Assembly (NCBI GenBank): GCA_947073545.1
Contig: CAMTMP010000015.1
Span: forward strand, 1-64,000
From: an uncultured bacterium
Lineage (GTDB): Bacteria > Bacillota > Clostridia > Lachnospirales > Lachnospiraceae
DNA length: 64,000 nucleotides
Reading direction: 5' to 3'
Part shown: positions 18,969-49,608 of the stretch, one piece after another
Numbering within the stretch: position 1 is the first letter of the stretch
How the letters are laid out: every line of letters begins with the position of its first letter
Translations under genes and position numbers: made by a program
The notes under the pieces: model-generated
What the model was told of the DNA's origin: nothing
Database searches by the model: none
Seen by the model: only the letters and a program-made list of their open reading frames with translations

Positions 18969-20513
18969 TCAACCGTTCATCACAAACTTCGCCAAGATTC
19001 TCTGGCAATTTTTGTCATCGCAATACTTATGCATCTTATTTCTTAGCCCTTGCCTCTTGTCCACCGTTTCGTCCCGCTCGTCCGACACGTCCTCTACAAA
19101 GCCGCACACATCCTCAAACGTAAATACTTCCTTACCCGGAAGCCACTCTCTGATATTTTCAAAGACAAATCCCCGGCTCTTCTCATATTCCGCAACATCC
19201 TCCAGCATAAATGCGATCGGCTTATCTAACAGCATAAAGTCCACCGCCGCCGAAGAATAGTCACTAATCAGCGCATCCGCCTGTCCCAGCAGCCGATTGA
19301 TGGGGATATCCTGTTCCACCAGATCCTCGTTTTCGATCAGATGAATATTGGTACACCCATCGCAAAACACCTCTCTCCTATCCTGAAAGGGATGCAATTT
19401 TACGACCAGAACAATATCCTTGTTTACCAGAAGAGTGTTCAGGCTATACAATTGTTTTCTGGTTTTCACAACCGGCAGGCCCGTTTCCGATTCCAATGTG
19501 TATTCGTTTAACTGTTCCAGTTTTCCTTCGGTAGACCTGAACGTAGGCAGCCAGAATATGTATTTCCCGGCCTCCGGTATGCGCAGCCTTTCCATATCCT
19601 GCCTTTCCGGTTGAAAAAGCCAGTCCTGCTTGGCATAACCGGTCACTAATATTTGATCCTTTCGCAATCCGTATATGTCTGCATGGATGTCCGCATACAA
19701 ATCACTGATAACCGTAGTATACTCATAGCGCTTCTCACAGCGCACAAAATTTACCCTTGTCTTAAAGCCGCAGCCATGCCATAGCTGCACCCTGATCTGA
19801 TCACTCCTGCAATTTCTGGCAAACCCATAGGCATCCGTAAAAAAGATATATTTTGCAAGGCATAAGGCACGATAATAAGCCTCCCTCTCTTCCTTTTTCT
19901 CAGAAACCGACCAGTCATAGGATAAAAATCCCACATTCTCTAGCGAAGCATAATAACTAAATTCTTCCGGATTTTTAACAAACCAGATCAATTCATATTT
20001 ATGATTTAGACCCTCTCGCAGAGCATATTCAAATAATGCCCGCGCATTGTCTGCAAAGTCCATTCCTTTTACATAAGACGATGCGTGGGGACCGCTTCGA
20101 AAAATAATTATATTTCTTAATGCCTCTCCTTCATACTTCTTACGATAATGCTCTTCATACTCAGTTTCTTGATTTGCAAAATAATAAACCGTAATATTCT
20201 GCAAGTCTTCTTTCAATACCTTACATACCATTTCAAAGGTTTCCTGTATGTAGTCACTCGTAATCAATATTGCTGTCTCTTCAAGGCAGACATTTATTAA
20301 ATATGATATATATACTATATTAATTTTCTTCCCGTGAAAAGTAATTTGCCCCAAATTTCTTTGATTTGCATCTACAATACATTCAATCCGATCAAGAACA
20401 TCATACTTCCGGCAAAGCTCCTCCAAATAGGACACTGATTTTTCCACACAGCAGATTTTCCTGCCTGCCAGAGCACTGATATTATGTTTTGTCAGTTTAC
20501 ACAGCGTCATCAC
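18969..20513 (-). CDS. TagB/TagF-type CDP-polyol phosphotransferase
   Basis: A 514-residue protein. Residues about 140-510 match the CDP-glycerol/CDP-ribitol phosphotransferase family: V-Q-L-W-H-G-C-G-F-K-T, V-T-G-Y-A-K-Q-D, W-L-P-T-F-R-S, V-V-K-L-H-P and L-I-S-D-Y-S-S-A-A-V-D. These enzymes build teichoic-acid-like polyol phosphate. The N terminus (about 17-105) looks like a degenerate copy of the Rossmann-like module of this locus that lost its glycine loop: K-I-C-C-V-E, C-I-V-D-A-N and A-I-L-I-T-S remain. The start (GTG or the adjacent ATG) overlaps the upstream stop. Ribitol is the likely donor given the TarI/TarJ-like genes downstream. Confidence 0.88.
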   Translation of the reverse strand: MMTLCKLTKHNISALAGRKICCVEKSVSYLEELCRKYDVLDRIECIVDANQRNLGQITFHGKKINIVYISYLINVCLEETAILITSDYIQETFEMVCKVLKEDLQNITVYYFANQETEYEEHYRKKYEGEALRNIIIFRSGPHASSYVKGMDFADNARALFEYALREGLNHKYELIWFVKNPEEFSYYASLENVGFLSYDWSVSEKKEEREAYYRALCLAKYIFFTDAYGFARNCRSDQIRVQLWHGCGFKTRVNFVRCEKRYEYTTVISDLYADIHADIYGLRKDQILVTGYAKQDWLFQPERQDMERLRIPEAGKYIFWLPTFRSTEGKLEQLNEYTLESETGLPVVKTRKQLYSLNTLLVNKDIVLVVKLHPFQDRREVFCDGCTNIHLIENEDLVEQDIPINRLLGQADALISDYSSAAVDFMLLDKPIAFMLEDVAEYEKSRGFVFENIREWLPGKEVFTFEDVCGFVEDVSDERDETVDKRQGLRNKMHKYCDDKNCQRILAKFVMNG

Positions 20514-21520
20514 AAACTATTTCCTTCCACTTTCATGCAAAAATCGTCTATTGACATCATGTTCGCTTTTCCTGCCTCGCTTAGCTTAACCCGCACCTCA
20601 TTGTAAGAATAAACCGTAATCACAATCGGTATCCCTTTGTGATTCCACTGAATAAAATCTTCATATTTCATAATTGGCACACCGTCATATAAATCTTCCT
20701 TGACATGTTGGTCTACAAAGCACTTAATCTTGCATTTGTTCTTTACTTTCTGATACAAGTACTTTCCGACAATTCCGGCTCCGTATATTATAATTTCTGA
20801 AAATGTTAGCGGTTGTATCAAATTAATCCTATCAATCTGCATCAGCAATTCGTATTTTGATACCATTGGCTTTAGCCTTTGGTTCTCATCCTTCAAATCA
20901 AAATATAAATTGCGGTATCGGATATTCATATCATAATTTTCATTAAAAAGCTGTTGGAGTTCCGCATTTTTATCAAATAAACTTCTTAACCCGTCTCTGC
21001 TGGATCCGTCATATATACAGTCAACTACGAAAAAGGGAAACTCTAAATTTTCGCAAAGCACCTCTTTACTGCTGACCACATATATGATTTCATTGTCTGG
21101 ATTGGATCTTTTGATTACTTTCTCAATCATACACGGATTATTCTGTATATAGCTCAATTCCTCATTATTTCTTACCGCCCGGATAAAACATGTTTTCTGT
21201 TTTATCATCTCCATGAACTTCCCAATCCGCTTTTCATATTTTTGATATATGGATTCATAATCCTCTTCAAAGCAGTTGGTCACTTCATGATTGTAATGGA
21301 AACCATGTATGGTATCCCAAAACTCTCCCGGCCTGTCATCCAGCATGACTAAATTTTTTCTATCCAAGAAATCTGTAAAATCATTTTCCATACAGGCAAG
21401 AACACCGGGGAAATTACTAAAATACCAGTCAAATGGGCCAGACCGGCTCCGAATCCCGTATTTTGACATAGAGGCCGCAGTTCCGCAAAACCAGCCTAAT
21501 GAAATAAAATTTTCGAACAT
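20510..21520 (-). CDS. DUF1796-type putative papain-like protein with C-terminal YGAG module
   Basis: A 336-residue protein starting M-F-E-N-F-I-S-L-G behind GAGGG. Residues 1-220 resemble DUF1796, a predicted papain-like fold: I-S-L-G-W-F-C places the candidate nucleophile at C12, with G-P-F-D-W and a histidine cluster G-F-H-Y-N-H. Residues about 240-336 are the Rossmann-like module with I-I-Y-G-A-G-I-V-G. It sits between a GT2 gene and the polyol transferase, overlapping the latter by 4 bases. DUF1796 members are common in polysaccharide loci, but none has a known substrate as far as I can recall. Peptidase activity is unproven. Confidence 0.7.
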   Translation of the reverse strand: MFENFISLGWFCGTAASMSKYGIRSRSGPFDWYFSNFPGVLACMENDFTDFLDRKNLVMLDDRPGEFWDTIHGFHYNHEVTNCFEEDYESIYQKYEKRIGKFMEMIKQKTCFIRAVRNNEELSYIQNNPCMIEKVIKRSNPDNEIIYVVSSKEVLCENLEFPFFVVDCIYDGSSRDGLRSLFDKNAELQQLFNENYDMNIRYRNLYFDLKDENQRLKPMVSKYELLMQIDRINLIQPLTFSEIIIYGAGIVGKYLYQKVKNKCKIKCFVDQHVKEDLYDGVPIMKYEDFIQWNHKGIPIVITVYSYNEVRVKLSEAGKANMMSIDDFCMKVEGNSL

Positions 21521-21531
21521 ATTATTTCCCT

Positions 21532-22755
21532 CTATTCTACGCTGGCAGGCACAGCTCCTTCTGCCTTTGCAAATTTCCAAAAAAATTCCGTCTGGTCAAA
21601 CCATAAAACTTTATTGTCTGCAACACCCGATTTTATCAGCTCTTCCCTCACTCCCTTTGCTTTCTGCGGATTCTTAATCGTAATCACAATATAGTCATAT
21701 GTATTGTCGTTCACTGCATCGGGAGATTCCACAACAAAGTTTTCGCAGCTTAATTTTTCATATGCCGCGTCGATACACGTTACATAACGTAAATCTTTGC
21801 GGCTCTGCAACTGTTTAAGATATTTCCGTCCCAACTCCCCCGCCCCATATAAGACAATCCGTGAATGTTCGGGAATTTGGTCAAGCCAATAAGGATCTAT
21901 CCATAAAAGATTTTTATTTTCGAACCCTAATAACGTATTGATCCCTTTATACAGCAATTCCGTAATATATATTTCCGACTGCCAGCGCATTTCTTTCGTA
22001 AAACGCTTATGCCCAAACAATCCCTGCATGTACTTATATACCGCATATACCTTTAAAAGATATTCAGCGCTCCCGGAATGTACGATAGAGTTTGCACGGA
22101 TTCTATAGTGATACAATGCCTTATGAAAGACGTAAACCGAATTGCATTCCAAAAGTGCCGTCAACAGGCACATTTTATCATCCGCCATAGTGATTTCATC
22201 CGGAACCATATATTGCGCATCACAGATCAATTCCCTTTTGAAAAGCTTATAGCATAAGCTTGCCTTTAATCCTGAAGATTTTTCTGCAAGATTGTATATT
22301 GCCTTATCTCTCAGCTTTTGCATATCCTCCCCTGCATATAGTCCTTGCGCTACCGTATCCATATGCATAGTCGTATAATTTCCCTCTAAGCAAAACCCAC
22401 ATGTTACCATATCAGCCTGATACTCCCCTGCCTTCTGGTACAATAGCTCGTACATATTCTCTTCGATCCAGTCATCGCTGTCCACAAACCCGATATACTG
22501 TCCACTGGCCACCCGAAGCCCCGCCTTTCTTGCCGAGGCAGGGCCGCCATTATCTTTATGCATTACCCGGATACGCTCGTCCTTTGCAGCATATGACTCC
22601 AAAATATCTAAGCATTCATCCGTCGAACCATCATCCACGCAGATGATTTCAGTTTCCTTCAACGACTGTCTGCGGATGCTGTCTATACACGCCGGTAAAT
22701 ATTGGGCAGTGTTATAAACCGGTATGATAATGGATACTTTACTTATATCGCTCAA
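21532..22755 (-). CDS. GT2-family glycosyltransferase with C-terminal YGAG module
   Basis: A 407-residue protein. Residues 1-230 are a GT-A domain: S-I-I-I-P-V-Y-N, V-D-D-G-S-T-D and the metal-binding F-V-D-S-D-D-W. Helical linkers follow. From about residue 299, V-L-Y-G-A-G-E-L-G-R-K-Y opens the Rossmann-like module shared across this locus, ending near N-K-V-L-W-F. No membrane segment is present. It is one of three GT2 genes here with the same architecture. Donor and acceptor cannot be predicted. Confidence 0.88.
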   Translation of the reverse strand: MSDISKVSIIIPVYNTAQYLPACIDSIRRQSLKETEIICVDDGSTDECLDILESYAAKDERIRVMHKDNGGPASARKAGLRVASGQYIGFVDSDDWIEENMYELLYQKAGEYQADMVTCGFCLEGNYTTMHMDTVAQGLYAGEDMQKLRDKAIYNLAEKSSGLKASLCYKLFKRELICDAQYMVPDEITMADDKMCLLTALLECNSVYVFHKALYHYRIRANSIVHSGSAEYLLKVYAVYKYMQGLFGHKRFTKEMRWQSEIYITELLYKGINTLLGFENKNLLWIDPYWLDQIPEHSRIVLYGAGELGRKYLKQLQSRKDLRYVTCIDAAYEKLSCENFVVESPDAVNDNTYDYIVITIKNPQKAKGVREELIKSGVADNKVLWFDQTEFFWKFAKAEGAVPASVE

Positions 22756-24890: not shown

Positions 24891-26134
24891 TTGCTTTCTC
24901 CTTTAAATACCGTTTCCGCTATGCCCATCATATACATAAACCCTTGTCTTTGTAACTGTTCCTTAATTTCATGATAGTACTTAGGGGTTGTTCCCACAAT
25001 CACGAGACACTGCTCCTTTATATCAAAATACTCCTCCAGTGTCCTGACTGGATTCCCCCATATGGTTTTCCTGTTCCCCTCCATAGAAGTCACTGCAATC
25101 CCATACAAAGGAATATCGTAATAGTCTAAAATCTCCACAACACTTCTTGCAATATCTCCTGCTCCATATAATATAACGTATGGATACCGTGCAATCTCTT
25201 CTAACTGCTTTTCGCTAAGTTCCAGAACCTTCCCAGACTTGATGCACAATTCGGAAAAAGTCCTGTAAATCTTTAAATACGCGGGCTTATCCTCCAATAG
25301 TTGAAGCTCCTGTTCTCTTCGGTTCCATCTGCGATAAACGCTAATATACTCTCTACAAATCTTTCGTATGTATTCTTCGATGACTGCACCGGTTCTCTGG
25401 TCAAATTCTTCCCGCAGATACCACTTCATCAGTTCACAGATACAGATCATATAACTTCCAATATGTTTCTGCGTAATCCCAGTCCGCATCGTAGACTGCG
25501 CGCGAACTCTGTATATATACAATTTCTCATTTAGGCTGTATACTTTATGGGCCTTCACATAACATTGGAAGCTGAACAAAATATCTTCATAAATAATCCC
25601 ATTATAAAAAGTAATCTGATTATGAGCCAAAAAATCGCGTCTGTACAATTTTGACCAAGGCGCTATGATGATACTTTCTTTACAGACTGCCTCCGCCCAA
25701 AACTCCCTGCCATCATATATCCCGTCGGTTATCTGATATCTGTCCTGCTTGACATCCGTTCCACTGCTGTTCATCACCTGTTTATAATCAAAACATACCA
25801 AATCACTGCCTTGGCTGACTGCCATGCATTTTTCCAATAAATCCTGACAGATCATGTCATCCGCATCTACAAATAGGACAAACTCTCCTTTTGCATGTTC
25901 CATGCCTACATTTCTCGCATACGACTGTCCTTCATTTTTATCATTTGTAAATATTTTAATACGGAAATCTTTTTTTGCATATTTTTCTAAAATTATAGGT
26001 GAGCCGTCTGTAGAGCAGTCGTCTATGCATAATATCTCAAAATCTGTATATGTCTGATTCAATATGCTTTCCAGACATTCCGCCAGATAGTCCTGCACAT
26101 TATATACTGGTATAATTACAGATACCTTGTTCAC
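24887..26134 (-). CDS. GT2-family glycosyltransferase with C-terminal YGAG module
   Basis: About 415 residues from a GTG placed right after AGGAGGGCAGAAA; a longer frame would cover this binding site. The GT-A domain shows S-V-I-I-P-V-Y-N, I-D-D-C-S-T-D-G-S and the D-x-D equivalent F-V-D-A-D-D. The C-terminal module from about residue 318 reads V-I-L-Y-G-A-G-D-I-A-R-S and ends near the stop. Sugar specificity is not visible. Same architecture as two other GT2 proteins of the train. Confidence 0.88.
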   Translation of the reverse strand: MNKVSVIIPVYNVQDYLAECLESILNQTYTDFEILCIDDCSTDGSPIILEKYAKKDFRIKIFTNDKNEGQSYARNVGMEHAKGEFVLFVDADDMICQDLLEKCMAVSQGSDLVCFDYKQVMNSSGTDVKQDRYQITDGIYDGREFWAEAVCKESIIIAPWSKLYRRDFLAHNQITFYNGIIYEDILFSFQCYVKAHKVYSLNEKLYIYRVRAQSTMRTGITQKHIGSYMICICELMKWYLREEFDQRTGAVIEEYIRKICREYISVYRRWNRREQELQLLEDKPAYLKIYRTFSELCIKSGKVLELSEKQLEEIARYPYVILYGAGDIARSVVEILDYYDIPLYGIAVTSMEGNRKTIWGNPVRTLEEYFDIKEQCLVIVGTTPKYYHEIKEQLQRQGFMYMMGIAETVFKGESK

Positions 26135-26153: not shown

Positions 26154-27641
26154 CTAAAAAACTGGCGTCATCCACAAAATCCTGTCATCTGAAATTCCAC
26201 GCGCAGATAAATTCATGCGAATAGCCTGTGCCGTCTTTTCTTCCATCACTGCAATGAGAATTACATCATATTCAGTCTGCGCAATAGCATCAATACCCTT
26301 TACCCCGCCCTCCATATCCTCATATTTTTCTGCCGCCACGTCTACCCATGCAGCTAAATTCCATTCCTTTTTTTCCTTGATGTAATGATAATAGTTTTTG
26401 CCAATATCTCCCGCCCCGTACAAAATTACCTTCTTGCCACTTTCTATTAATCCATCCGGGAAACGATAATAATAATTTCTATCTTCCAACCTGTCCGCGT
26501 ACTGTCCAGTCTCCCAAGAACCCCTCTCAACATTGGGCAGTTCTGACGCTAATACCTCATCAAACAACTCCTCTATCCGTGAAATATAGGTATCCAGGTC
26601 AAAGCGCCGGATAGACTCTTCACATTTCTCTGCAAATGCTTCCTTTGAAGTTCCCAAGATTTCTACTATATTATCTACTGCTTCTTCATTCGTTCTGAAT
26701 AGTTTCCCACAACTCTCTCCATTAGAAAGTATACGGGCACCTCCCACCTCGGTAGATACAAAGGGAACATGCAGAGCCACACTTTCCAGCAGACTCATGG
26801 GAAATCCTTCCGATTTTGATGTCATGCAACACACGTCCGCCTGCTTTATAACCGGAAACGGATTCTCCACATAACCTAAGAAATGTACCCATTCCTGAAG
26901 ACCATATTCCGCAGCTTTATCCCTTACCTCTGTTTCCAGTTCTCCCTTTCCAAGGAAATATAAATGAGTGTTCTTTTCTTTTCTAAAGATCTGCCGGAAA
27001 ATATCTACCATCCTCAAAGGATTTTTATTTTCATCAAATCTGCCCACAAATATCACTGCTGGATTTCTTAATCTGATCCCTGTCGGTTCATTTGCTTTTT
27101 CTCTTATTTTTTTAACATTTACCGAATTATAGACTTCTACAATCTTATCTGCTTGGTTCGGAAACAATTCCCGTATAGATCTTGTCGTCACATCACTTAT
27201 AGAAATTATTTTTTGCACCTTATCAAAAGCTCTGCTTTGTAATACGCGATACCGCTCTACCCCATTTTCAGCCAAATCAAAAACTGCTCCATGTATCCAT
27301 GCAATGTTCCGCGTGCCACTTGGCAACAGGAAAGAAGGGAGTTGATAGTTGAAAGAAACATACAGATCATAATCCGATGGGATATAGCGCATGATTATTT
27401 CATCTGGTGCATTATATATGTTATACACCTTCTTCCGGTACTCCTTATCCCCTTCCCAAGTGATAGAATCATACACTTTTATATGAGAATCGACTGGCTC
27501 TTTCTTTATGTTTGCATTGTAAATTTCAATAATCCCAATTTTATATTTCTGCGGATTTAGATGATTAACAATCGTTGTCAGCAACGCCTCTGCACCTCCG
27601 CCAAAGGAATGGGACCAGATAATGAATAATACCTTTTTCAT
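26154..27641 (-). CDS. GT4-family glycosyltransferase with C-terminal YGAG module
   Basis: A 495-residue GT-B enzyme. The N terminus has a W-S-H-S-F-G-G-G-A-E-A-L loop. The C-terminal half of the GT-B fold shows V-I-F-V-G-R-F-D-E-N-K-N and the retaining GT4 motif S-E-G-F-P-M-S-L-L-E. Residues about 402-495 are the shared Rossmann-like module (V-I-L-Y-G-A-G-D-I-G-K-N-Y). It lies between the sulfatase-like gene and a GT2 gene with a 20-base gap. GT4 enzymes use nucleotide-activated sugars and retain configuration; the exact donor is unknown. Confidence 0.88.
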   Translation of the reverse strand: MKKVLFIIWSHSFGGGAEALLTTIVNHLNPQKYKIGIIEIYNANIKKEPVDSHIKVYDSITWEGDKEYRKKVYNIYNAPDEIIMRYIPSDYDLYVSFNYQLPSFLLPSGTRNIAWIHGAVFDLAENGVERYRVLQSRAFDKVQKIISISDVTTRSIRELFPNQADKIVEVYNSVNVKKIREKANEPTGIRLRNPAVIFVGRFDENKNPLRMVDIFRQIFRKEKNTHLYFLGKGELETEVRDKAAEYGLQEWVHFLGYVENPFPVIKQADVCCMTSKSEGFPMSLLESVALHVPFVSTEVGGARILSNGESCGKLFRTNEEAVDNIVEILGTSKEAFAEKCEESIRRFDLDTYISRIEELFDEVLASELPNVERGSWETGQYADRLEDRNYYYRFPDGLIESGKKVILYGAGDIGKNYYHYIKEKKEWNLAAWVDVAAEKYEDMEGGVKGIDAIAQTEYDVILIAVMEEKTAQAIRMNLSARGISDDRILWMTPVF

Positions 27642-27671: not shown

Positions 27672-29438
27672 CTACGGATTCAAATCATCCAAACCGCATA
27701 CTGTAACATATGGCTTAATCTGATCAAGCAATTCCTTCTTTAATGAAACATTCTGTACCGACTCATCATCAATCGAGAATAGTTCCGTTTGACCATTGGA
27801 AAATATACCCAATTTGTATTTACCTTCAAAAACAAAAGCTTCAAATGCCAATAAACCCTGCTCATATCCTCGCTTAGCGTAAAGATACTTAAAATCAGGG
27901 TTATATATTTCCGATCTCTGCAGTTTTACCAATTTTCCGTATTTTCGTTCAAACTTTTTCTTTTCCAGCAGGCTGATAATTATCGTATTCAATTCCATCA
28001 GAGAAATATCTTCTTTTTCCACACCTGCTTCCATTTCTGGAGATTTGATCATAAGCGGAATCCTCACCAGATCCTGATGATAGGTAAAAAATATTGGCTT
28101 TATCTCTTCCAGCTTTTCCTGTTGATTCACAATGATATTGCCATGATCTGCAAAAATAACCATACGGCATTTCACTCTCTGTAAAATTGGTATGATCGCA
28201 TCGTCCAAATATTTTAGCATAGCATGATGCTGCATCTCATAGTCAGTCCGCATTTTCCCACCGTTGCGCTGCATATAATCAAAAAGGATATTTGTACCCT
28301 CCGCTATAATTGGCGCTTTTACATATGGATTGGGATAGGAATAATGGCTCTCAAAAAGAATATGGAGATAATATAACCCATTCTGCTCCTCGTATGTACC
28401 CAAGATAAAATCCCAAACTTTTTCGGAAGCAGTCTGATAAGACTCTATTCTATTGATTTTCTCACTCTCAACATACTTTACAAAATCCGTATTAAAGGTT
28501 ATGTTCCGCTCTTGGCTATATGCTTTCTGAATAAAACGGCATTCATTGTCATTGACACTGTTATTTTCATAATACCTCGTACGCATATCTGCATTTTCAC
28601 TATAAGCAGGAACAAGGCTTTCATACGTAGATGTAGATACCGAATAGGCATTTTCATAGCGATAAAATTGCTTTGAAAACGCTTCTAATACCGGCATTTC
28701 CTCTTCCGAGATATCCTTATTCCGTAATCCGTCAAAACATAGCATCAGAACATTTTCTTCTGAGATATGCTCTGCCATTTCACATTCCAAATTATAAATA
28801 TCCTGCAGATCATCCGCTAAATTTTGATATTCCGGCTTCGGAAACTTCTGATGCAGTTCTTTTGTATATGAAATTGCCAGATAAAAATCTTTGATTATGA
28901 TCAGGTAGCCAATTAGTTGAAAATATATGTCCTCCTGATTCTCTCTCTCCTCTGCTAACCGAAGCTGCAGTCCGTTGATCTTTCGATATCTGCTGCAAGG
29001 ATGTAAAATGGCATAGTATTCCTCATTCAAATGAATCCCTTGATTTTCAATATACTCATATATATCCAAATAGCTGACATCCGGATAATTTCGTTTTATG
29101 TTCTCTTTAATTTCTTCCCGGAACTTATATGAAGAGATAACAATGCCATCTATTTTATTACCGCTAATCTCTGTTTTATGGATTACTTGAAAGCCTGATG
29201 CCTCTTTGTATTCATCTGCCCGTTCATCAATGATATACTTGACGGATTTTAACTCATTCATAAAATCCGTCATCAGCATTTTCGTATGGTAGCCATAACA
29301 CCATAATGCTGGCCTCTGACAAGAAGAAATATATTTGTCGAGAGCCTCCTTCACCAAATAATTGACATTGACAGCCTTATTCAGTCCCGTAAAACCATAT
29401 TTTGATAATAGATGTTCATACTTTTCTTCAATCAACAT
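27672..29438 (-). CDS. Alkaline-phosphatase/sulfatase-superfamily protein with N-terminal module
   Basis: A 588-residue protein. Residues about 40-135 resemble the locus module in a degenerate form (A-L-W-C-Y-G-Y-H-T-K-M, K-Y-I-I-D-E-R). Residues about 225-560 match the sulfatase/phosphoglycerol-transferase fold: L-C-F-D-G-L-R metal loop, a candidate nucleophile in S-V-S-T-S-T-Y, F-A-D-H-G-N and R-I-P-L-M-I-K-S-P. There is no signal peptide or membrane helix, unlike LtaS or EptA types, so it should act in the cytosol. Phospho-substituent transfer or trimming is a possible role. Confidence 0.72.
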   Translation of the reverse strand: MLIEEKYEHLLSKYGFTGLNKAVNVNYLVKEALDKYISSCQRPALWCYGYHTKMLMTDFMNELKSVKYIIDERADEYKEASGFQVIHKTEISGNKIDGIVISSYKFREEIKENIKRNYPDVSYLDIYEYIENQGIHLNEEYYAILHPCSRYRKINGLQLRLAEERENQEDIYFQLIGYLIIIKDFYLAISYTKELHQKFPKPEYQNLADDLQDIYNLECEMAEHISEENVLMLCFDGLRNKDISEEEMPVLEAFSKQFYRYENAYSVSTSTYESLVPAYSENADMRTRYYENNSVNDNECRFIQKAYSQERNITFNTDFVKYVESEKINRIESYQTASEKVWDFILGTYEEQNGLYYLHILFESHYSYPNPYVKAPIIAEGTNILFDYMQRNGGKMRTDYEMQHHAMLKYLDDAIIPILQRVKCRMVIFADHGNIIVNQQEKLEEIKPIFFTYHQDLVRIPLMIKSPEMEAGVEKEDISLMELNTIIISLLEKKKFERKYGKLVKLQRSEIYNPDFKYLYAKRGYEQGLLAFEAFVFEGKYKLGIFSNGQTELFSIDDESVQNVSLKKELLDQIKPYVTVCGLDDLNP

Positions 29439-29454: not shown

Positions 29455-30624
29455 CTAGAAATAAATATAGGCAGGCGGCAGCCATTTTATTTTACTGTTT
29501 GGAATACCCTCTTCCTTTAGATCTCTTCCGATTTCCTCCGCTAATGTTTCTTTCTCCACTGCAATCAGAAGTACATCGTAGTCCAGATTTTTTATATCTT
29601 CTAGCCCTGTTATTTCCGCATAATCAAATTGAATCTCCTGATATTTTCGATCTACCCACGCAAGCAGATTGCATTGCGTATACTTTCTGATCTGTATGTA
29701 GTAGTCCTGTCCGACAAGGCCAGCCCCATAAAGAATCACCCTGCTTCCAAACAGCGTCTCTATTTTTCCGATCTTATAAAAGGGAATCCTACAAGTAGCT
29801 TCTGCCTCTTCCTGCAAGCCGCCGTATATCTGTAATGTCAGAAAAACATGTAACGCCTTTTCCATTTCTTTCATACAGCCATACTCTGTAAAAACTTTCC
29901 TCAGAAAATTATATGCTACTGCCCGTTCTGCTGCCTTATGGGTTCCATTTCCTCTATGACTTAGCGAGTCCCCTATCACTCGATAATGATAGAAAGCTTT
30001 TTTGTTTAACACGACTTTCGTACTCGACAAGATACATAAACAAATAACGGCCAAATCCTCTCCTATTTTCAAATAATCTGGTATTTTAGAAAAAGCATCA
30101 CAAATTAGCTCCCAGCGGAATAATTTTGACCAGACACTATACGTCATAGCCTCATATTCCTTGCATGTCTCCCGCAAAACAAACTTTTTGATAAAATCCG
30201 TCTGTTTTCCAGTCACCTCATAGATGCCCTCCGCAAATTTAAGGTGTGGCCGTAACTGCCTGTCATTATCCTCAAAATATCCAAAATGTACAAAGTCCGC
30301 ATTTGTCTCTTCCATTTCTTTTAAAAGTTCTTCATACATTTTAGGCTGTATATAATCATCGCCATCTACAAAACCAACATATTCCCCTTTCGCATGTCGT
30401 AATCCTTCTTTCCTTGCATGGCTCGGTCCGTAATTATTTGTATGTATGACCTGAATACGCTTGTCCTTCCCCGCATATTCATCGCATATCTTTCCCGAAT
30501 CATCTGTAGAGCCATCATCAACGACTATGATTTGTAGATTATTATAAGTCTGATTCCTTATACTCTTCAGGCACTCACCAATATAATCCTCATTATTATA
30601 GACCGGTACAATTACACTGATCAT
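29455..30624 (-). CDS. GT2-family glycosyltransferase with C-terminal YGAG module
   Basis: A 389-residue protein. The GT-A domain has S-V-I-V-P-V-Y-N at the N terminus, V-D-D-G-S-T-D-D-S and F-V-D-G-D-D-Y. From about residue 295 the shared module reads V-I-L-Y-G-A-G-L-V-G-Q-D-Y and ends near the C terminus with I-K-W-L. The architecture equals the GT2 genes at 21.5 kb and 24.9 kb, suggesting duplication within the locus. No transmembrane segment is visible. Confidence 0.88.
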   Translation of the reverse strand: MISVIVPVYNNEDYIGECLKSIRNQTYNNLQIIVVDDGSTDDSGKICDEYAGKDKRIQVIHTNNYGPSHARKEGLRHAKGEYVGFVDGDDYIQPKMYEELLKEMEETNADFVHFGYFEDNDRQLRPHLKFAEGIYEVTGKQTDFIKKFVLRETCKEYEAMTYSVWSKLFRWELICDAFSKIPDYLKIGEDLAVICLCILSSTKVVLNKKAFYHYRVIGDSLSHRGNGTHKAAERAVAYNFLRKVFTEYGCMKEMEKALHVFLTLQIYGGLQEEAEATCRIPFYKIGKIETLFGSRVILYGAGLVGQDYYIQIRKYTQCNLLAWVDRKYQEIQFDYAEITGLEDIKNLDYDVLLIAVEKETLAEEIGRDLKEEGIPNSKIKWLPPAYIYF

Positions 30625-30638: not shown

Positions 30639-31121
30639 TTATAATTCCTGAATAATGTCTTCCAATGATAAAATAGGACACTGTAATTTTTCTTCCAGCA
30701 TAACCCTGATCTCATCAAAGAATGTAATTGCGGTAACTATAACCGCATCTACTTCTTCCAAATCTTCCTCCGGCCTGCAGATTTCCGTATCAAAATAAAC
30801 AGGATCCGCTTTCTGATCCACTGCATACTTCACTTCGATCCCATTATCCCGCAGTTCATCCAATAATCTCTCACCTGCATAGCTCAGTCCGTAAACGGCA
30901 ACCGTCTTATATCCCTTCTCCCCTAAATACGCTGCCACAGATTTGCCTTCCTGTTTCGTCCTCATCCAATCGCACATCATGATAAAAAGCGCAAGATGCT
31001 TGTCAGCTAATTGCTTCTGTCTTGCTCTCTCCTTATCCACTTTCCCTTTTGCAAAAAAAGCACCGCCAGCCACCCCCAATGCTGTACCCATCACCGTGCC
31101 CATCACTGTCTTCTTGCTCAT
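30639..31121 (-). CDS. Stand-alone membrane-anchored YG module protein
   Basis: A 160-residue protein. Residues about 5-25 form a glycine-zipper-like hydrophobic helix (M-G-T-A-L-G-V-A-G-G-A-F-F-A). A short basic and helical linker follows. Residues about 70-160 are the Rossmann-like module found on the neighbouring enzymes, here with V-A-V-Y-G-L-S-Y-A-G and V-D-A-V-I-V-T-A. It has no catalytic partner domain. It may anchor or regulate the enzymes that carry the same module, but this is inference; the protein family itself is unknown to me. Confidence 0.7.
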   Translation of the reverse strand: MSKKTVMGTVMGTALGVAGGAFFAKGKVDKERARQKQLADKHLALFIMMCDWMRTKQEGKSVAAYLGEKGYKTVAVYGLSYAGERLLDELRDNGIEVKYAVDQKADPVYFDTEICRPEEDLEEVDAVIVTAITFFDEIRVMLEEKLQCPILSLEDIIQEL

Positions 31122-37006: not shown

Positions 37007-38101
37007 TCAACCTCCTGCTTTGTCATATACTGCATAACAGACTGTCTCGTCCAATCTATCCGTATAATTTCTAATATATAACTTATATTCTGGACACAAT
37101 TTATGGATTAATAATGGTATTTCCCATAAATCTTCCAGCTTATGATAAATACAGATTGCTAATTTGGGTTTATACTTCTGTATCATTCCCTGCCCCCCAA
37201 TCAGCGCCGCCTGTTCGCTTCCCTCAATATCCATTTTAATAAATGTCACTTCGTCATTTAGCGCAATCACTGAATCCAGCTTCCTTACCTCTATTTCACA
37301 ATTGCCATCTTCCGCGATCTCAGACGTTGTACCTTTTCCTTCCCTAAAACGTAATACTTCATCACTGCTCCAATTTCCATACGGGCAGATTCTTATCCTA
37401 TCATCATCTGCGTACTTGCTTTCCATGATCCTGCAATTATTTATTTCCGGTTCAAAAGCATATATTTTTTTAAAAGCATCCTGGGTATGATCTTTAAAGA
37501 CCTCAATTGTATCTCCTGTATATGCCCCGCAGTCCACAAATATTTCCTCTGCCGACAATGCAAATGACTCTATACAATCATTTGCTCCTTTCACAGGAAA
37601 ATACTGACAGTTTCCCTGTGTTCTTGACAGTATTTCTACATTTCCTGTTTCATATATCTCAAAAATTGATTTGTAAATATATTTTGATAAATCATCCTGA
37701 AGCATATCATATACCTGATGTATATTCTCTCTGTTTTGGGCAAAAATTCCAGAATCAACATCATCAATCAATAGTTCAGCAAAGAAATAGATGTTTTGAA
37801 CTGGTATCCCGCTCTCCATCAGCCTTCGTGACATGTTATTAATGGCATAAGTCGTTATGATAAATGCACATTCCCTTTTATCTTCATCTGTAATCTGGCT
37901 GACTGAATATACCGGTTTACCACAATACGTCGATGTATTTCCGCCATCATCAATAAAGCCGAGCACCTGATCGGTAAGACTAAATAATTCCAGATTGCTG
38001 ATCGCTGCCTTTCCTCTCCTGCCAGCTCCATATAAAAAAATATTTCTTTCCTTAACGGATATCAACAAACTGTATAATCGTTCAAATCTTTCTTTCTTCA
38101 T
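37007..38101 (-). CDS. FkbM-family methyltransferase with N-terminal YGAG module
   Basis: A 364-residue protein. Residues about 18-115 are the locus module (I-F-L-Y-G-A-G-R-R-G-K-A, then G-F-I-D-D-G and A-F-I-I-T-T-Y). Residues about 185-345 match FkbM-type methyltransferases: F-V-D-C-G-A-Y-T-G-D-T, I-Y-A-F-E-P-E, R-K-L-D-S-V-I and I-K-M-D-I-E-G-S-E. These enzymes often O-methylate sugars in polysaccharide loci. The module is N-terminal here while most glycosyltransferases carry it C-terminally. The gene ends one base before the next start. Confidence 0.88.
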   Translation of the reverse strand: MKKERFERLYSLLISVKERNIFLYGAGRRGKAAISNLELFSLTDQVLGFIDDGGNTSTYCGKPVYSVSQITDEDKRECAFIITTYAINNMSRRLMESGIPVQNIYFFAELLIDDVDSGIFAQNRENIHQVYDMLQDDLSKYIYKSIFEIYETGNVEILSRTQGNCQYFPVKGANDCIESFALSAEEIFVDCGAYTGDTIEVFKDHTQDAFKKIYAFEPEINNCRIMESKYADDDRIRICPYGNWSSDEVLRFREGKGTTSEIAEDGNCEIEVRKLDSVIALNDEVTFIKMDIEGSEQAALIGGQGMIQKYKPKLAICIYHKLEDLWEIPLLIHKLCPEYKLYIRNYTDRLDETVCYAVYDKAGG

Positions 38102-38118: not shown

Positions 38119-40170
38119 TTATGATATGCTACACCAAATGTTATCAGCATCAATACCATGATGCCGTAATTCCACATAGATTTCTTTACCATAAATATCA
38201 GACGTTACCAGAATATTGTAGTCCCGGTAGTTCTCATACAGCTCCTCTGGTGAAATCACTTTCTTACCTGCGAATATATATTCCTGTTCCTGCGCCTTTT
38301 TATCACAAAAAACTATTTTCCCACACATCTGGGAATCCATCTTTTCCATCATTCTTACTGTTCTGTTCCCAGTACCATACACTATGACCTTGTCACATTT
38401 TCTAATATATCTTCTCATTGCATCCATATCATTATTAAGACACTGTTTCTCTCTTTTAGTACAGCCACTCCGGATATATCGCAATGTGGTGTCTGGAACG
38501 ATTCTGGCAATCTGCTCCCATTCCTCTTTTTCCATCAGTCTTCTAACCATAGATGCACTTATAATCTGATTTTCCCCCCCCTCCATATTTTTTGTTTCCC
38601 TTCTCGGAATTTCAATCAATTCTATACCATATTCAGGCAATAATGATTGCATTTGCTCATTGTACTGCCTTGTAATTTTGTCAAACGGCTCTTCTCCTAC
38701 AAATCTTCTCGTAATTCCTAGTCGAGGCGCTATATACTGTGCAAAAATCCATATATCCATGGTCGCATCGATGATTGCATCCGATTCATTTTCTTTCTCA
38801 AAATAACTTTTAAAAGTGCCCTGTGATATCATAAATTTTCCACTCGGTGCCACAACTATATTCTTTATATCCTTAAGCCCTTCCTGCACCATCGTCATTC
38901 TGTCTCTAAATGTAAAATAAGAGCGGTCTTCTTCAACCACAAAAATATATAAAAAATCCACAGCTGCACTGGCTGTCTCCACCAAATATCTATGCCCCAG
39001 CGTAAACGGATTTGCATTCATGACAATTGCACCTATCTGCGGCTCTTTATCTTTGTCCATCTTCACTGGAATACTTTCCAGGTATTCTGCAATTCCTTGT
39101 TCTTCATCATACTGTAAAACCCGTTGTTTTCCATGTAAAAGTACTCTGTCTCTTTTATCTCTGGCTCTGCCTTCCCCAAGTATAATTTTATTAAACAAGG
39201 TCTCGGCAATTAATTCATTTCCCTTCTTTGTAGTATGTATGGGAATATCTGTATATAACCATAACTCCCCCTGATAATCGTCATATACCTGTTTCAAATC
39301 CAGTTCATACTGTATAAATAAATCATCCAGAAAAATCACCAAATCATCTTCAAAAATATCATAATTCAGAACTTTATATAAACTGTCGTCCATGGTTCTT
39401 GTTTGCAATATTTTAACAATTTCATATTCGTATCCCCGATTTGAAAGCATATTTGACAAAATAAAAGCAAGTTCTTCATCCTCAAAGTGAATCCAGCCGA
39501 CAACCAAACATGGGCCTACTAAATATATTTTTCTCTTTCCGCGTCCTATCCTTTCCCGCGTCTCCTTCTTGGAAAGGTTCTTCAACACCTCCGCAGTACT
39601 TTTATCAGTGATTTTGGTTATATTTTTTTCAAGTAAATCTCTTCCGTCCTCCATTGCAAGCCATGTATCACTTAACACATATTGAAATTTCTCATGTTGA
39701 TTAATTTCATGTAACAATGGAATTTTAATCCGAAATACGTTAATTCCTTTCTTCCGTAAGAGCTCATATAATTCTGTATATTTCGTATTAAGAATGTCCT
39801 TTTCTATTAAAGGATTCTTTTCATAGAACAAATGGCTTTCCTTGTTCCTGACTGGCTTTTCTGCCAGAACATAATGGTAAACATACTTGCTTTTCCGGAA
39901 GATTCGTTCTGCTTCCTGCTGCGAAAAGCAAGTAAATTCAGCTGTATAAATATTGGCACATCGTATAAAAAACTCAAGTTCCTCTTCCACTCGGAACATC
40001 GCTATATCACGATAAAAAATACACGTTAAAAATTCTTCTCCCTGGTATACCATGTAGACAAATTCTGTCTTATCCACTGCATTATACTGACTAAAAAATC
40101 TCACTAATCCTTTTAGCGATAAGTCAGAAACATCAATATGTATTGTCTTTTTCTCTACAGCCTTTACCAT
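38119..40170 (-). CDS. Second large CitC-like adenylyltransferase, with C-terminal YG module
   Basis: A 683-residue relative of the protein at 22.8-24.9 kb. The N-terminal 200 residues are not recognised (possibly CBS-like). Next is the degenerate SGNH-like domain: V-G-P-C-L-V-V-G and Y-T-D-I-P-I-H-T-T-K-K-G. From about residue 390 the CitC nucleotidyltransferase shows N-A-N-P-F-T-L-G-H-R-Y-L, V-V-E-E-D-R-S, F-V-G-E-E-P and I-S-A-S-M-V-R-R. The last 105 residues are the shared module with V-I-V-Y-G-T-G. CitC itself acetylates citrate lyase using ATP; no such partner is encoded here. Activation of a carboxylic acid for glycan acylation is the inferred role. Confidence 0.75.
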   Translation of the reverse strand: MVKAVEKKTIHIDVSDLSLKGLVRFFSQYNAVDKTEFVYMVYQGEEFLTCIFYRDIAMFRVEEELEFFIRCANIYTAEFTCFSQQEAERIFRKSKYVYHYVLAEKPVRNKESHLFYEKNPLIEKDILNTKYTELYELLRKKGINVFRIKIPLLHEINQHEKFQYVLSDTWLAMEDGRDLLEKNITKITDKSTAEVLKNLSKKETRERIGRGKRKIYLVGPCLVVGWIHFEDEELAFILSNMLSNRGYEYEIVKILQTRTMDDSLYKVLNYDIFEDDLVIFLDDLFIQYELDLKQVYDDYQGELWLYTDIPIHTTKKGNELIAETLFNKIILGEGRARDKRDRVLLHGKQRVLQYDEEQGIAEYLESIPVKMDKDKEPQIGAIVMNANPFTLGHRYLVETASAAVDFLYIFVVEEDRSYFTFRDRMTMVQEGLKDIKNIVVAPSGKFMISQGTFKSYFEKENESDAIIDATMDIWIFAQYIAPRLGITRRFVGEEPFDKITRQYNEQMQSLLPEYGIELIEIPRRETKNMEGGENQIISASMVRRLMEKEEWEQIARIVPDTTLRYIRSGCTKREKQCLNNDMDAMRRYIRKCDKVIVYGTGNRTVRMMEKMDSQMCGKIVFCDKKAQEQEYIFAGKKVISPEELYENYRDYNILVTSDIYGKEIYVELRHHGIDADNIWCSIS

Positions 40171-43247: not shown

Positions 43248-44069
43248 TCAAACTAAATCCTTTTCTTCCAGACCCAATTCCTGCATTAATATTGGCAATT
43301 CCTTCTCATTTGGCATTCTGGAGTGCCAAATTGCAGAATTTTCCATGAAGGATACCCCTTTACCCTTAATTGTATGTGCGATGACGAGTACAGGTTTATC
43401 TTTTTCCCTTACAAGCAAGGCTTTTCTGATTTCTTCATAATTATGCCCATCAACTTCTACAACTTTCCAACCAAAGGTCCCCCATTTTTCACCAAAGGGG
43501 TGCATCCCGACTATATCTTCTAGATTTCCCATACCCTGAAGCTTATTGTAATCTACAATTGCTGTCAAATTATCCAGCTTTAACGCCGGAGCTGACAATG
43601 CAGCCTCCCATACCGATCCTTCCTGACACTCACCATCCCCCAATACAACATAAGTATGGTTGGACTTTCCATCTGCCTTATTAGCATAAGATATTCCAAT
43701 CGCAAATGACAATCCATGTCCCAGAGCCCCCGTTGATGCTTCCACACCAGGTATCTCACGAATCTTCGGATGTCCTCCGAATTTAGAACCTGGAGTCTCG
43801 ATGTGCCATAATTCCTCTTCTGGAAAAAAGCCTGCTCTTGCCAGTGCAGCATAAAGCGCATAACACGCATGCCCTTTGCTAAGTATAAAATAATCTCTCC
43901 CATCCCAATCAGGATTCTGGGCGTCATATCTCATCACATTGTCAAAATATAAGACACTGATGATATCTGTCGCGGAGTATGCACCTCCCAAATGGCCATT
44001 CCCTGCAAAATGTGCCATTTTATATATCATTTTCCTAATATCTTTTGCTGCTTCCTGTATTGTCTCCAT
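43248..44069 (-). CDS. Transketolase, N-terminal (TPP-binding) subunit
   Basis: A 273-residue protein with the TPP-binding pattern G-D-G-E-C-Q-E-G ... V-D-Y-N. Transketolase-specific segments G-H-L-G-G-A-Y-S-A, S-K-G-H-A-C-Y-A and G-A-L-G-H-G-L are present, as is I-K-G-K-G-V-S-F-M. It pairs with the downstream C-terminal subunit gene. The sequence groups with transketolase rather than with TPP-dependent decarboxylases, so it is not the missing phosphonopyruvate decarboxylase. It is preceded by two radical SAM genes. Confidence 0.92.
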   Translation of the reverse strand: METIQEAAKDIRKMIYKMAHFAGNGHLGGAYSATDIISVLYFDNVMRYDAQNPDWDGRDYFILSKGHACYALYAALARAGFFPEEELWHIETPGSKFGGHPKIREIPGVEASTGALGHGLSFAIGISYANKADGKSNHTYVVLGDGECQEGSVWEAALSAPALKLDNLTAIVDYNKLQGMGNLEDIVGMHPFGEKWGTFGWKVVEVDGHNYEEIRKALLVREKDKPVLVIAHTIKGKGVSFMENSAIWHSRMPNEKELPILMQELGLEEKDLV

Positions 44070-46288: not shown

Positions 46289-47794
46289 CTATGTTAGTTC
46301 AATAACATTCTGCAAAAATTCAATTAGCTCTTCTACAAATTCCCTATTTGATAGGGAGCCCTTGCCCTTCTTTGATTCATAAACTATGTCCTCAACAAAA
46401 TTCATCTCCAGAGCCTTGGCGACACAAGGATAAACATATTCATTTGTTTTTGTAAACCAGCTTTTTCTAACTTCCTCCATCTCACTTTCATCATAAGAAA
46501 TATCGATATTCAGTTTTTCTGCTACCTGACTTGCTAAAAAACAAGCCAGATTCCAATTTATATGAATACTGTCATAGAAAATCAATTCCTTCTTGTAATT
46601 CCGCAAGATATAATCCGCAACGTGAAAAGAAGATTTGCGATCCAGAACCTTGACTCTCTTTACCGCTTTATTAAAATTATCAACGATCTCTTCTTTAGTC
46701 CAATAATTCCCCCCAGACACTTTTGCATAAATTTCATCATGACTATATCCCTCCTCTAGCATTTTTGCCACTTCTTTATCCCGATACCCGCCTCCTATCG
46801 CCTTATAATATTTCTCAAAATTAATGTATGCTTCATCCGGTACAGTCGGTGTATCCATTTGCATGAACTGTCCATTAAAAAAGTAAAAAGGATATTTCAA
46901 TTTGATTGCATTATGATATTCTTTATCTACCAGTCTCCCATGCCCTATTTCTGACCCACTATCCATAAATGCATCTCTATACAGCACCGCATCACATAAT
47001 TTCCCGTATAACTTCTGCCTTCTCCGGTCTGCATAACTACTTTTCATCCAGACAGAATCTTCAAGATACAATACCGTGTATTCTTGCCAGAAGTAACGGT
47101 TTAAAGACACAATTATCCGTATTATATTTTCCTGACAATTCCCCATAGATACAAAAAGCTTATTTTGAAATTCCAACGGGAAGCCAAAATCCTTCTCTGA
47201 TGAATAACCTAGGTTCATTAACTTTTCTGCCATTTCAACCTGCGCATCACTGCAAATTACAATAAAAATATCTTCATACCCTCTCAACTCTTCCGGTCTT
47301 ACCACCGGCAGTCCACAAAACTCTCCTTCCTCACTCCAATTAGAAATAAAACCTCTTATATGTAGAGTATCCTCATATCTTTGATAAAAACTTTTGCCGT
47401 TTTCTCCTGCTCCAAAAATCCATATGTCTTTTTCTTTAATTTTATTTTGATTCATCTTCCTTTTATCATACTCTAAACGATAATATAAGGAATCCATATA
47501 ATCTTCTTCAAAATAAAGACTTTTTTTATAAAATATATAGTCCCAGCGTGCCCTGTTACACTCATCCTGTTCCGTGCATAAGACAATATAATATTGTGAA
47601 ATTATCTCTTCTGCCTTTTCACTTCCATACATCACAACTTCAGGAAGCGATTCTTTTTTTCGGTATTCCTTAAAACCTTCTTTTAAAATGATATATCCAA
47701 TTTCAAACTTCTTTTTAAACAGAAAATAAAATTGTTCACATTCTTTCCAATATCCCAATAGCGCTACTTTTCGTTTTAATTCTGTGCACATCAT
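46289..47794 (-). CDS. WcbI-like protein with tandem Rossmann-like modules
   Basis: A 501-residue protein. Residues 8-100 are a degenerate module (K-V-A-L-L-G-Y-W), 121-205 a canonical one (I-W-I-F-G-A-G-E-N-G-K-S). From about 210 the C-terminal domain resembles WcbI, a putative polysaccharide acetyltransferase or esterase of SGNH-like fold. The nucleophile-like block is S-M-G-N-C-Q at 216-221 and the last block F-Y-D-S-I-H-I-N. WcbI is known from capsule loci, with CoA binding reported for the family as far as I recall. It overlaps the preceding SGNH gene by 4 bases. Confidence 0.75.
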   Translation of the reverse strand: MMCTELKRKVALLGYWKECEQFYFLFKKKFEIGYIILKEGFKEYRKKESLPEVVMYGSEKAEEIISQYYIVLCTEQDECNRARWDYIFYKKSLYFEEDYMDSLYYRLEYDKRKMNQNKIKEKDIWIFGAGENGKSFYQRYEDTLHIRGFISNWSEEGEFCGLPVVRPEELRGYEDIFIVICSDAQVEMAEKLMNLGYSSEKDFGFPLEFQNKLFVSMGNCQENIIRIIVSLNRYFWQEYTVLYLEDSVWMKSSYADRRRQKLYGKLCDAVLYRDAFMDSGSEIGHGRLVDKEYHNAIKLKYPFYFFNGQFMQMDTPTVPDEAYINFEKYYKAIGGGYRDKEVAKMLEEGYSHDEIYAKVSGGNYWTKEEIVDNFNKAVKRVKVLDRKSSFHVADYILRNYKKELIFYDSIHINWNLACFLASQVAEKLNIDISYDESEMEEVRKSWFTKTNEYVYPCVAKALEMNFVEDIVYESKKGKGSLSNREFVEELIEFLQNVIELT

Positions 47795-49608
47795 AAACCG
47801 GCAATCCCCTTCTCATCTATTACATGCAAAATCCGATCCGCTATTATCTCATTTCCTTTTTCAAACAAATGACACGAGTCCATATACACATCGGGCCTGT
47901 CATCAAAAATTCCTGTAAGATTATAGATATATGTATAATCTTCTTCTATCTTCCGGTTTTCAATCATTTCTCTAAAGAGCCTGAAAGGTTCCGCACAGTT
48001 CTCCACCCAAAATACGGAGGATGATAACACCCACTCATCTATTCCTTTTCTATTAAGCATATTGTATCTTGTTGGCTGTGCAAATGCCATAAACGCTATA
48101 TCTTTTGTCTGAGACACAGCATACATACACTTCACTTTTGACAACCAGTTCTCAAAATAATTTTCCCCCGTATCAACTCCTATATTAACTGCCGAAATAT
48201 CCATATCATTTCCCACATGCCCGGTGCCTTCCTCATGAATATTTCGAACAATAAGATCAAACATCTGCTTCAAATAGGGAATTGCAAAGGGATGTCCGGG
48301 ATCCTCACATAAATCATTAAACCCGTCATAAACAATTATCAGATTCGGATTTAGTGGTAAAATATCTCTTTCCAGCTTAATCAACTCTTGTGTTGACGTA
48401 TAACCACATGTGCCTCCGTTGTACACCGTCACTGCATCATTCGGCCACTTCTCATATAAAATCCTGGCCCAGTTACGCTTATCATAAATATCATCTGTAG
48501 TGCTTCCCCCAAGAACAGCTATTTTAAAGTCTCCCGGCTTTTCTTCTCCATATATAGCTATCCCCGGATATCTGCTATTCTCTTTATAGGTATATCCTAA
48601 ATTGATGTCCAACATACTTTCCAAAATATAATTACAAAAACTCAGCTGAGGCATGATGTTAAAGTCAATATTTTTTTTCAAGCCCAAATCATGCATTTTA
48701 TTAATTTTTACTTTATCATTTTCCAGAATAATAAAATAATCATCCTCATATAATAAATCTTCAATAAGTTTAACGGAGTATTCTGTGTGCTCCTTCTTAT
48801 CTGTCTCATCATATACAAAACCATGAAAATTAAAATCCAACAATTGAATACATTTTGCTGTCTTCAAATTTCTCTCCGTCTGTTCACCATAAAAATATAT
48901 CTTCTTAGTGCCAAAGAAAACTTTCATATTATAAATATACTGCACAATAATCGGAAGATTTTCATCTGAGGAATAAACATATTTCAAATACTTACCAATC
49001 GTTTCTTCATAAAAGAATCTGCGCTGTCTATATTGCTTCCGTTGCAATAATATATCCATTTCTTTATATTTTGCTGAAGCCTCAATAACAGAAGTATCTT
49101 CCGACAGCTTAGACAAAATGTCTATACCGTAAACTGGCAGCCCTGCCTTGGAACTCCCGTCACTGCATTTTGTTGTATCAGAGTCTATAAAGCAATGTAA
49201 TCCTTCCCCCATTCCCCTCCGGGTTAACTGTTCATGCACTTCCAATCCATATTTACCTGCACCAAAGATAACCATACGCTCTTTGTTTACCATTGGATTC
49301 AAAACCGTAGCTGTCTGGCATATATCATACAATCCCTCTTCATATTCTTTTGCGCTAAAAACCACTGCCTCTTCTATGTCTAGCGCCCCTATATCTACGA
49401 TTGGTTTATGAAACGCTTCCTTTCCAATATATGCCGACTCATCAGTCGCAAAGCCGTCCACATATATTTCCATGATCAGGAAACGGCAAAACAACGACAA
49501 CGCTCCCTCCTTTTGTTCTCTGTCTTCCTTAAACCAAATATACTTTTTTAGGCTGCTATATACCAAAGGATTCGTAATGAATAACTGCTCAGGTTCTTTC
49601 ATTCTCAT
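47791..49608 (-). CDS. SGNH-hydrolase-type protein with two N-terminal Rossmann-like modules
   Basis: A 605-residue protein starting behind GAGGAG. A canonical module begins at about 111 (M-V-I-F-G-A-G-K-Y-G), a degenerate one at about 235 (K-I-Y-F-Y-G-E-Q-T-E). From about 362 an SGNH/GDSL-type domain follows: V-L-G-G-S-T-T as block I, Y-N-G-G-T-C-G-Y, Y-D-G-F-N-D-L as the N block and Y-M-D-S-C-H-L-F as the Asp-His block. Such domains are acyl-esterases or acyltransferases. There is no signal peptide, so it likely acts on a cytosolic glycan precursor. Confidence 0.78.
   Translation of the reverse strand: MRMKEPEQLFITNPLVYSSLKKYIWFKEDREQKEGALSLFCRFLIMEIYVDGFATDESAYIGKEAFHKPIVDIGALDIEEAVVFSAKEYEEGLYDICQTATVLNPMVNKERMVIFGAGKYGLEVHEQLTRRGMGEGLHCFIDSDTTKCSDGSSKAGLPVYGIDILSKLSEDTSVIEASAKYKEMDILLQRKQYRQRRFFYEETIGKYLKYVYSSDENLPIIVQYIYNMKVFFGTKKIYFYGEQTERNLKTAKCIQLLDFNFHGFVYDETDKKEHTEYSVKLIEDLLYEDDYFIILENDKVKINKMHDLGLKKNIDFNIMPQLSFCNYILESMLDINLGYTYKENSRYPGIAIYGEEKPGDFKIAVLGGSTTDDIYDKRNWARILYEKWPNDAVTVYNGGTCGYTSTQELIKLERDILPLNPNLIIVYDGFNDLCEDPGHPFAIPYLKQMFDLIVRNIHEEGTGHVGNDMDISAVNIGVDTGENYFENWLSKVKCMYAVSQTKDIAFMAFAQPTRYNMLNRKGIDEWVLSSSVFWVENCAEPFRLFREMIENRKIEEDYTYIYNLTGIFDDRPDVYMDSCHLFEKGNEIIADRILHVIDEKGIAGL

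Follow-up and report, generated by a model that had tools for sequence, protein, structure and literature searches.

The DNA analysed here, hereafter the window, is a stretch of 64,000 nucleotides from an uncultured bacterium of the Lachnospiraceae (contig CAMTMP010000015.1 of assembly GCA_947073545.1), and our subject is a small protein module that recurs along it. A run of minus-strand genes spans 16.0-56.2 kb of the window, 32 gaps in a row being no longer than 65 nt. Its Pfam content comprises glycosyltransferases (GTs) of the GT2 and GT4 families, CDP-glycerol transferase-type, FkbM methyltransferase, RmlD-type and radical SAM proteins, a phosphoenolpyruvate (PEP) mutase with a cytidylyltransferase and WcbI, as well as more weakly matched sulfatase-like and GDSL/SGNH proteins, and the run is read as a putative surface-glycan locus. 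Between the TagF-like and the SGNH protein, both included, lie 25 genes, and on 11 of them an iterated profile detects a module of about 85 residues; a 12th, degenerate copy at the N terminus of the TagF-like protein is supported by family-to-profile comparison and a structure model. A sequence-only reading of this DNA had described such a module, shuffled onto about a dozen enzymes of a single operon. The observation is right and was understated; operon-specific shuffling is not supported.

Nine modules were excised and aligned, and each was left out in turn and then searched with a profile of the rest. All nine copies that had been called clear from the letters alone were recovered in their own proteins, at 16.6-61.4 bits (the weakest being that of the SGNH protein), as against at most 9.3 bits for 3400 shuffled proteins, which bears out a recurring module at the N terminus, at the C terminus and in the interior of unrelated enzymes. 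Iteration of the profile on 389 open reading frames (ORFs) yielded 197 domains, which lie in 194 proteins and of which 11 belong to the window; it newly detected the N terminus of the sulfatase-like protein and a stand-alone protein of 160 residues that the sequence-only reading had not listed. Of 6948 reversed or shuffled decoys not one scored as much as 20 bits, the highest value being 11.5. The leave-one-out and decoy tests exclude chance or compositional similarity. Additional candidate copies in the WcbI-type protein (residues 1-105), the SGNH protein (residues 1-104 and about 225-330) and the first of two CitC-like proteins (residues 1-262) were unsupported on testing.

All copies lie on the minus strand. 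Six of the nine clear modules are C-terminal: those of the DUF1796 protein (gene 20510-21580, module 20537..20815, 63 bits, also in the five homologues found), of three GT2 proteins (gene 21532-22755, module 21586..21879, 55 bits, with a PglD_N match at E 0.0013, below the Pfam cut-off; gene 24887-26152, module 24905..25195, 61 bits, of a subtype with the strand-2 aspartate replaced by valine; gene 29455-30624, module 29467..29760, 53 bits), of the GT4 protein (gene 26154-27641, module 26157..26450, 58 bits, with an AlphaFold model) and of the second CitC-like protein (gene 38119-40170, module 38122..38409, 64 bits, with a C2185-like_N match at E 8e-4, below the cut-off). The module is N-terminal in the FkbM methyltransferase (gene 37007-38101, module 37769..38062, 50 bits, and in all 29 homologues among the matches listed) and internal in the WcbI-type protein (gene 46289-47794, module 47168..47446, 71 bits, in 10 of 11 homologues found) and the SGNH protein (gene 47791-49608, module 48994..49296, 45 bits, in one of three homologues found). 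The two copies suspected of being degenerate are both upheld. The divergent module at the N terminus of the sulfatase-like protein (gene 27672-29438, module 29052..29333) scores 42 bits with the iterated profile and is present in all three homologues found. That of the TagF-type protein (gene 18969-20513, module 20175..20465) has lost the glycine loop and retained the strand-2 aspartate; alone it is not significant against the module profile, but its membership is supported by a probability of 93.8 in the family-to-profile comparison, by a predicted fold at a pLDDT (model confidence) of 87.4 and by its structural neighbours, and two of six homologues score 21-25 bits against that profile. The stand-alone protein is encoded at 30639..31121 and bears its module at residues 72-149 (30651-30923 in the alignments). 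As listed, the DUF1796 gene has a TTG start and overlaps the GT2 gene by 49 nt (21532-21580); its true start is probably an ATG 20 codons downstream.

The structure model of the module (pLDDT 96) is a small Rossmann domain, as had been suspected, with the alternating strand-helix fold of that superfamily and, save for the loop of the TagF-type copy, its glycine-rich loop and acidic residue ending strand 2. The nearest structures are 2g6t, the WbaP accessory domain (8t53), 3nkl and Rex. The catalytic domain of short-chain dehydrogenases and epimerases has about 250 residues, and no full-length domain of this kind fits in a module of only about 85. A remnant of a catalytic dehydrogenase was rejected for this shortness, and the RmlD-type enzyme of the same run is unmatched (3.2 bits with the nine-copy profile) and not among the carriers. 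When 100 single modules were compared with Pfam at E up to 0.01, 23 families were matched, the commonest being PglD_N (PF17836; 25 modules, best E 3.8e-6), in agreement with the likeness to PglD N-terminal domains proposed earlier; C2185-like_N (PF22674; 14 modules, best E 1.6e-8) and the C-methyltransferase C-terminal domain Methyltransf_14 (5 modules) are also among them. CoA_binding_3 (PF13727) is absent from these 23 families. Within the window the Pfam cut-offs are not reached: at E up to 1, PglD_N matches three of the 11 carriers, scoring 15.6-19.7 bits (cut-off 23.4; the GT4 module searched alone gives 21.2), and the second CitC-like protein matches C2185-like_N with 20.1 bits (cut-off 27). 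Some copies outside the window may pass one or the other.

The range of enzymes that bear the module is wide. A Pfam census of partners covered 185 of the 194 carriers (93 and 81 from fetched loci, plus the 11 of the window; nine carriers truncated at the end of a contig or of a fetched piece were set aside). Among the first 25 of 40 families in each census are GT2, GT4, GT8, GT11, GT-D, WbsX, RgpF and CDP-glycerol transferases, and also FkbM, TylF and other methyltransferases, cytidylyltransferases, TIM-barrel, radical SAM/SPASM, ATP-grasp, sulfatase and DUF1796 proteins. A search of other glycan loci of the Lachnospiraceae, which the sequence-only reading had suggested, found the module there: ORFs of at least 200 residues from 100 loci and the window form 110 BLAST families with a carrier, and again 110 without near-identical proteins, the families being built by single linkage, which may split or join true ones. 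Of the 80 non-redundant carrier families of at least two members, 35 consist wholly of carriers, and the other 45 are mixed. The sets taken together have 1737 ORFs, 799 of which bear a total of 805 modules; after removal of redundancy, 776 modules remain in 770 of 1683 proteins. Of these modules 367 are N-terminal, 268 are C-terminal and 17 are internal, and another 124 lie in proteins of fewer than 185 residues. Four stretches of DNA were fetched twice (L068/L114, L073/L119, L074/L132 and L121/L122), and these duplicates are still included in the conservation figures on 771 modules, the subtype and linker counts, the counts on 805 modules and on transmembrane (TM) segments, and the BLAST families, the non-redundant figures being separate. 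One protein of 916 residues (L070:11155-13905) corresponds to two adjacent genes at L119:1278-4070, which looks like a gene fusion, or a gene split, and not like the gain of a module.

The stand-alone protein consists of an N-terminal glycine-rich hydrophobic segment (about residues 1-25), a linker and the module. Eighty loci were chosen through this protein alone (the best 80 of 100; one is a near-copy of another). In 71 of them at least three other ORFs carry the module, with a median of 41% of the other ORFs; nine have fewer than three other carriers, two of these none, and several of the nine are short contigs. The stand-alone gene is a marker of module-rich loci. In stand-alone and other short proteins the strand-2 aspartate is present in 99%, but just 17% have glycine as the second loop residue; this position is serine in five of 11 aligned stand-alone proteins. 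A hand-made pattern for a linker motif common to the stand-alone protein and other carriers proved poor: of 503 modules preceded by more than 25 residues it matched seven, and just two of the seven were stand-alone.

The nine-copy profile has 27 matches at E up to 0.001 in the genome of the window, on four of its 94 contigs (nine in the window on C15, 10 on C4, seven on C7 and one on C10), and the iterated profile has 46 in the parts fetched. At a threshold of 1e-5 the module is found in 31 of the 36 other genomes of the genus, 28 of which have at least three matches, and five of 24 genomes from other families of the order have one match each. A match at 1e-7 was obtained for 102 of the 200 genomes surveyed across the family; 42, the present one included, have at least three. 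The module is not limited to this locus. In a sample of the phylum outside the family, nine of 295 genomes have at least three matches, so that the module is not confined to the family, though it is much denser there. As at most 17-25 candidates were scored per genome in the family- and phylum-wide searches, copy numbers are lower bounds, and many single matches of the phylum sample, which lie in ORFs of about 209-261 residues, are probably Rex. Some copies in genomes G022, G033, G167, G171, G224 and G230 stand in frames with an internal stop, which suggests decayed carriers or assembly errors. Module density is biased in one set of 20 fetched loci, which were chosen because of module matches. 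Two loci come from records labelled Muribaculaceae and Bacteroides (L095 and L121) yet are otherwise of the Lachnospiraceae type; L121 is probably mis-binned, since it is nearly identical to L122, from a Lachnospiraceae metagenome-assembled genome (MAG).

A tree was built of 182 of the 197 modules, 15 of less than 30 bits having been dropped. Enzyme-family labels (156 rows) require 61 changes on it, where 200 shufflings gave a mean of 119 and a lowest value of 112 (least possible 31), and position labels require 35 (shuffled mean 75.8), whereas the 148 changes for locus labels and the 132 for genome labels compare with shuffled means of 149.2 and 131.3. The modules thus track the enzyme family and not the locus, which argues that most copies were inherited with their enzymes. 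Recent spread inside this operon was rejected, as modules cluster neither by locus nor by genome, and with it goes the shuffling proposed for a single operon; the best-scoring match lies outside the window for nine of its 11 modules, the exceptions being those of GT4 and FkbM. Most fusions are old, with some clear swaps and losses. The modules of the GT4 protein at 26.2 kb and the GT2 protein at 29.5 kb are 42% identical although their catalytic parts belong to different Pfam families, a case of a real swap. Similarly, the module of the second CitC-like protein is 44.6% identical to that of a different protein of 345 residues, and homologues matching its CitC-like part have no module. In locus L154 a GT4 protein 47.8% identical to that of the window ends at residue 365 and has no module; its neighbours are relatives of the sulfatase-like and GT2 genes. 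In all there are 197 pairs of a carrier and a module-less relative, the surroundings examined being those of this GT4; some apparently module-less relatives lie at contig ends (L132), and some may be broken ORFs.

The closest public relative found is a Lachnospiraceae MAG (locus L083), with a stand-alone protein 86% identical and most genes of the stretch in common. Among pairs of more than 55% identity within the 20 kb fetched, no counterparts were found in the same places for the second CitC-like gene, the GT2 genes at 21.5 and 24.9 kb and the methyltransferase at 34.0 kb. At L083:16142-19816 other window genes are replaced by four ORFs that have neither a module nor a match in the window, which makes the locus a mosaic. 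Elsewhere in the run, the gene at 16818-18137 joins a PEP mutase to a cytidylyltransferase-like domain and adjoins a ribulose-phosphate 3-epimerase-type gene; phosphonate decoration of the glycan is possible. The glycan locus has two citrate lyase ligase-type (PF08218) proteins, at 22821-24890 and 38119-40170, the first with a CBS match and no module, the module being on the second only. A transketolase-like pair, split over two genes (42320-44069), adjoins radical SAM genes.

What might the module do? By weight, the loop glycines are conserved in 96, 87 and 60 percent of 771 modules and the strand-2 aspartate in 77 percent, and the first two of these glycines and the aspartate make up three of the four strongest positions. 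For a PglD-type enzyme, contacts of a loop serine and an aspartate with the ribose of UDP are described (PMC8040287); we infer that the module positions correspond to these. The conservation of loop and aspartate speaks more for a ligand site that has been retained than for a purely structural role. We give about an even chance to the module being a regulatory domain of surface-glycan enzymes that senses a nucleotide or nucleotide sugar, as proposed for WbaP. The glycine loop and the strand-2 aspartate would bind such a ligand, one shared across the pathway, and binding would alter the activity or the association of the attached enzyme. Because unrelated enzymes of one locus carry the module, one metabolite could throttle the whole pathway, and the stand-alone protein would carry the same sensor by itself. 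Several observations weigh against sensing. The TagF-type copy has no glycine loop and is yet kept in seven relatives, which fits a structural role; the aspartate at position 30 is absent from 23% of copies by weight; and the position of a second, uracil-contacting aspartate is asparagine or serine in 58%. When six proteins were compared with those of L083, non-synonymous divergence (dN) was 0.06-0.27 in the module and 0.09-0.29 in the rest, synonymous divergence being saturated or above 1 throughout, and in three of the six (GT4, GT2 at 29.5 kb and FkbM) module dN exceeded that of the rest. For all copies, moreover, a nucleotide ligand is deduced from fold and motif, and the fold cannot name the ligand because the ligands of its neighbours differ.

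Next in rank, though we put it at only about half the weight of sensing, comes a docking code, in which modules pair and a stand-alone protein held in the membrane by its hydrophobic N terminus gathers soluble enzymes into a membrane complex. The stand-alone gene does sit among carriers (at least three others in 71 of 80 loci), but nine of the 80 have fewer and two none. An N-terminal stretch of 19 residues with a mean hydropathy of at least 1.6 is present in 75 of 92 stand-alone proteins, but that of the window peaks at 1.56, and with the cut-off raised to 1.9 the number of short carriers that pass is 37 of 130. TM-like segments are missing from 657 of 669 long carriers, which would hence need an anchor, and present in 12; this is weak evidence, because non-carriers of the same loci rarely have them either (39 of 799, with none in 760). 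The accessory domain of WbaP is described as making a dimer interface (PMC10942596), and the degenerate TagF copy would suit a structural role. On the other hand, the resemblance among modules of one locus that a locus-specific pairing code might predict is not seen (148 changes against 149.2), and the loop for the ligand belongs to the best-conserved parts. It is rather unlikely that the module instead holds a nucleotide sugar or acceptor for the active site of its own enzyme, as the PglD N-terminal domain does with its UDP-sugar. The matches to PglD_N (25 of 100 modules) and Methyltransf_14 (5 of 100) and the largely joint inheritance of module and enzyme family would agree with it, but the chemistry of the carriers is very different, the GT4 relative in L154 manages without a module, 45 of 80 non-redundant carrier families include members with no detected module (some of them cut or broken ORFs), and the stand-alone copy has no enzyme to serve. 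Redox sensing through the level of NAD(H), as in Rex, seems the least probable: the fold neighbours also include domains linked to UDP-sugars and uridine nucleotides, and the carriers are glycan enzymes. The present data do not separate NAD(H) from a uridine-type ligand. One might also imagine, with little confidence, a combination of sensing and docking in the surface-glycan loci of the Lachnospiraceae, in which a nucleotide-gated module on dozens of unrelated cytosolic enzymes pairs with the membrane-held stand-alone module, assembly at the membrane taking place only at the right level of the shared nucleotide or nucleotide sugar.

Sharing of one module by many glycan enzymes, together with its stand-alone form, suggests pathway-wide control by a common metabolite. 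Should it prove to sense a nucleotide, much of the enzyme set of glycan loci in a major gut family would be under the control of a single ligand, a question that the stand-alone protein makes directly testable on one small domain. Whatever its role, the module marks glycan loci and offers a handle on many poorly annotated proteins, and distinguishing it from the catalytic part would correct annotations based on weak NAD-binding or acetyltransferase-like matches.

Among known systems, the N-terminal domain of PglD, NeuD and VioB (PF17836, TIGR03570) is related in sequence (VioB at E 3.4e-6). It typically precedes a left-handed helix acyltransferase, whereas the module is found here on many other enzymes, the three matching window copies fall below the Pfam cut-off, and TIGR03570, where listed for window carriers, gives 11.6-19.3 bits against a cut-off of 160.8. 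No acyltransferase beta-helix follows the module on the window carriers, which have other Pfam partners. The PglD-type N-terminal domain is described as UDP-binding, and in Pcryo_0637 the acyltransferase follows it (PMC8040287). The uncharacterised Clostridium acetobutylicum protein 2g6t is the nearest fold, with a sequence match through PF22674 that stays below the cut-off in the window; its structure record describes it only as a HI1244 homologue, and we take it to be CAC2185, the source of C2185-like_N. The NADH-binding domain of Rex is a fold neighbour, but Rex itself is a DNA-binding redox regulator, and its N-terminal DNA-binding domain has no Pfam match, at E up to 1, among the carriers of the window. 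The WbaP accessory domain (8t53; PF13727) and 3nkl, a UDP-quinovosamine 4-dehydrogenase, are close in fold, yet PF13727 is unmatched. For WbaP a response to uridine nucleotides has been measured, and its authors propose feedback control for initiating transferases and dehydratases; in the parts of that account dealing with the domain, it is described only for large phosphoglycosyl transferases and PglF-like dehydratases (PMC10942596). If sensing holds, such control would be extended from initiating transferases and dehydratases to whole pathways. We found no description of such a module set in the open-access literature searched. As far as that literature shows, what we report is known in kind, in its fold and its regulatory use, and new in the breadth of enzymes that bear it and in its stand-alone form.

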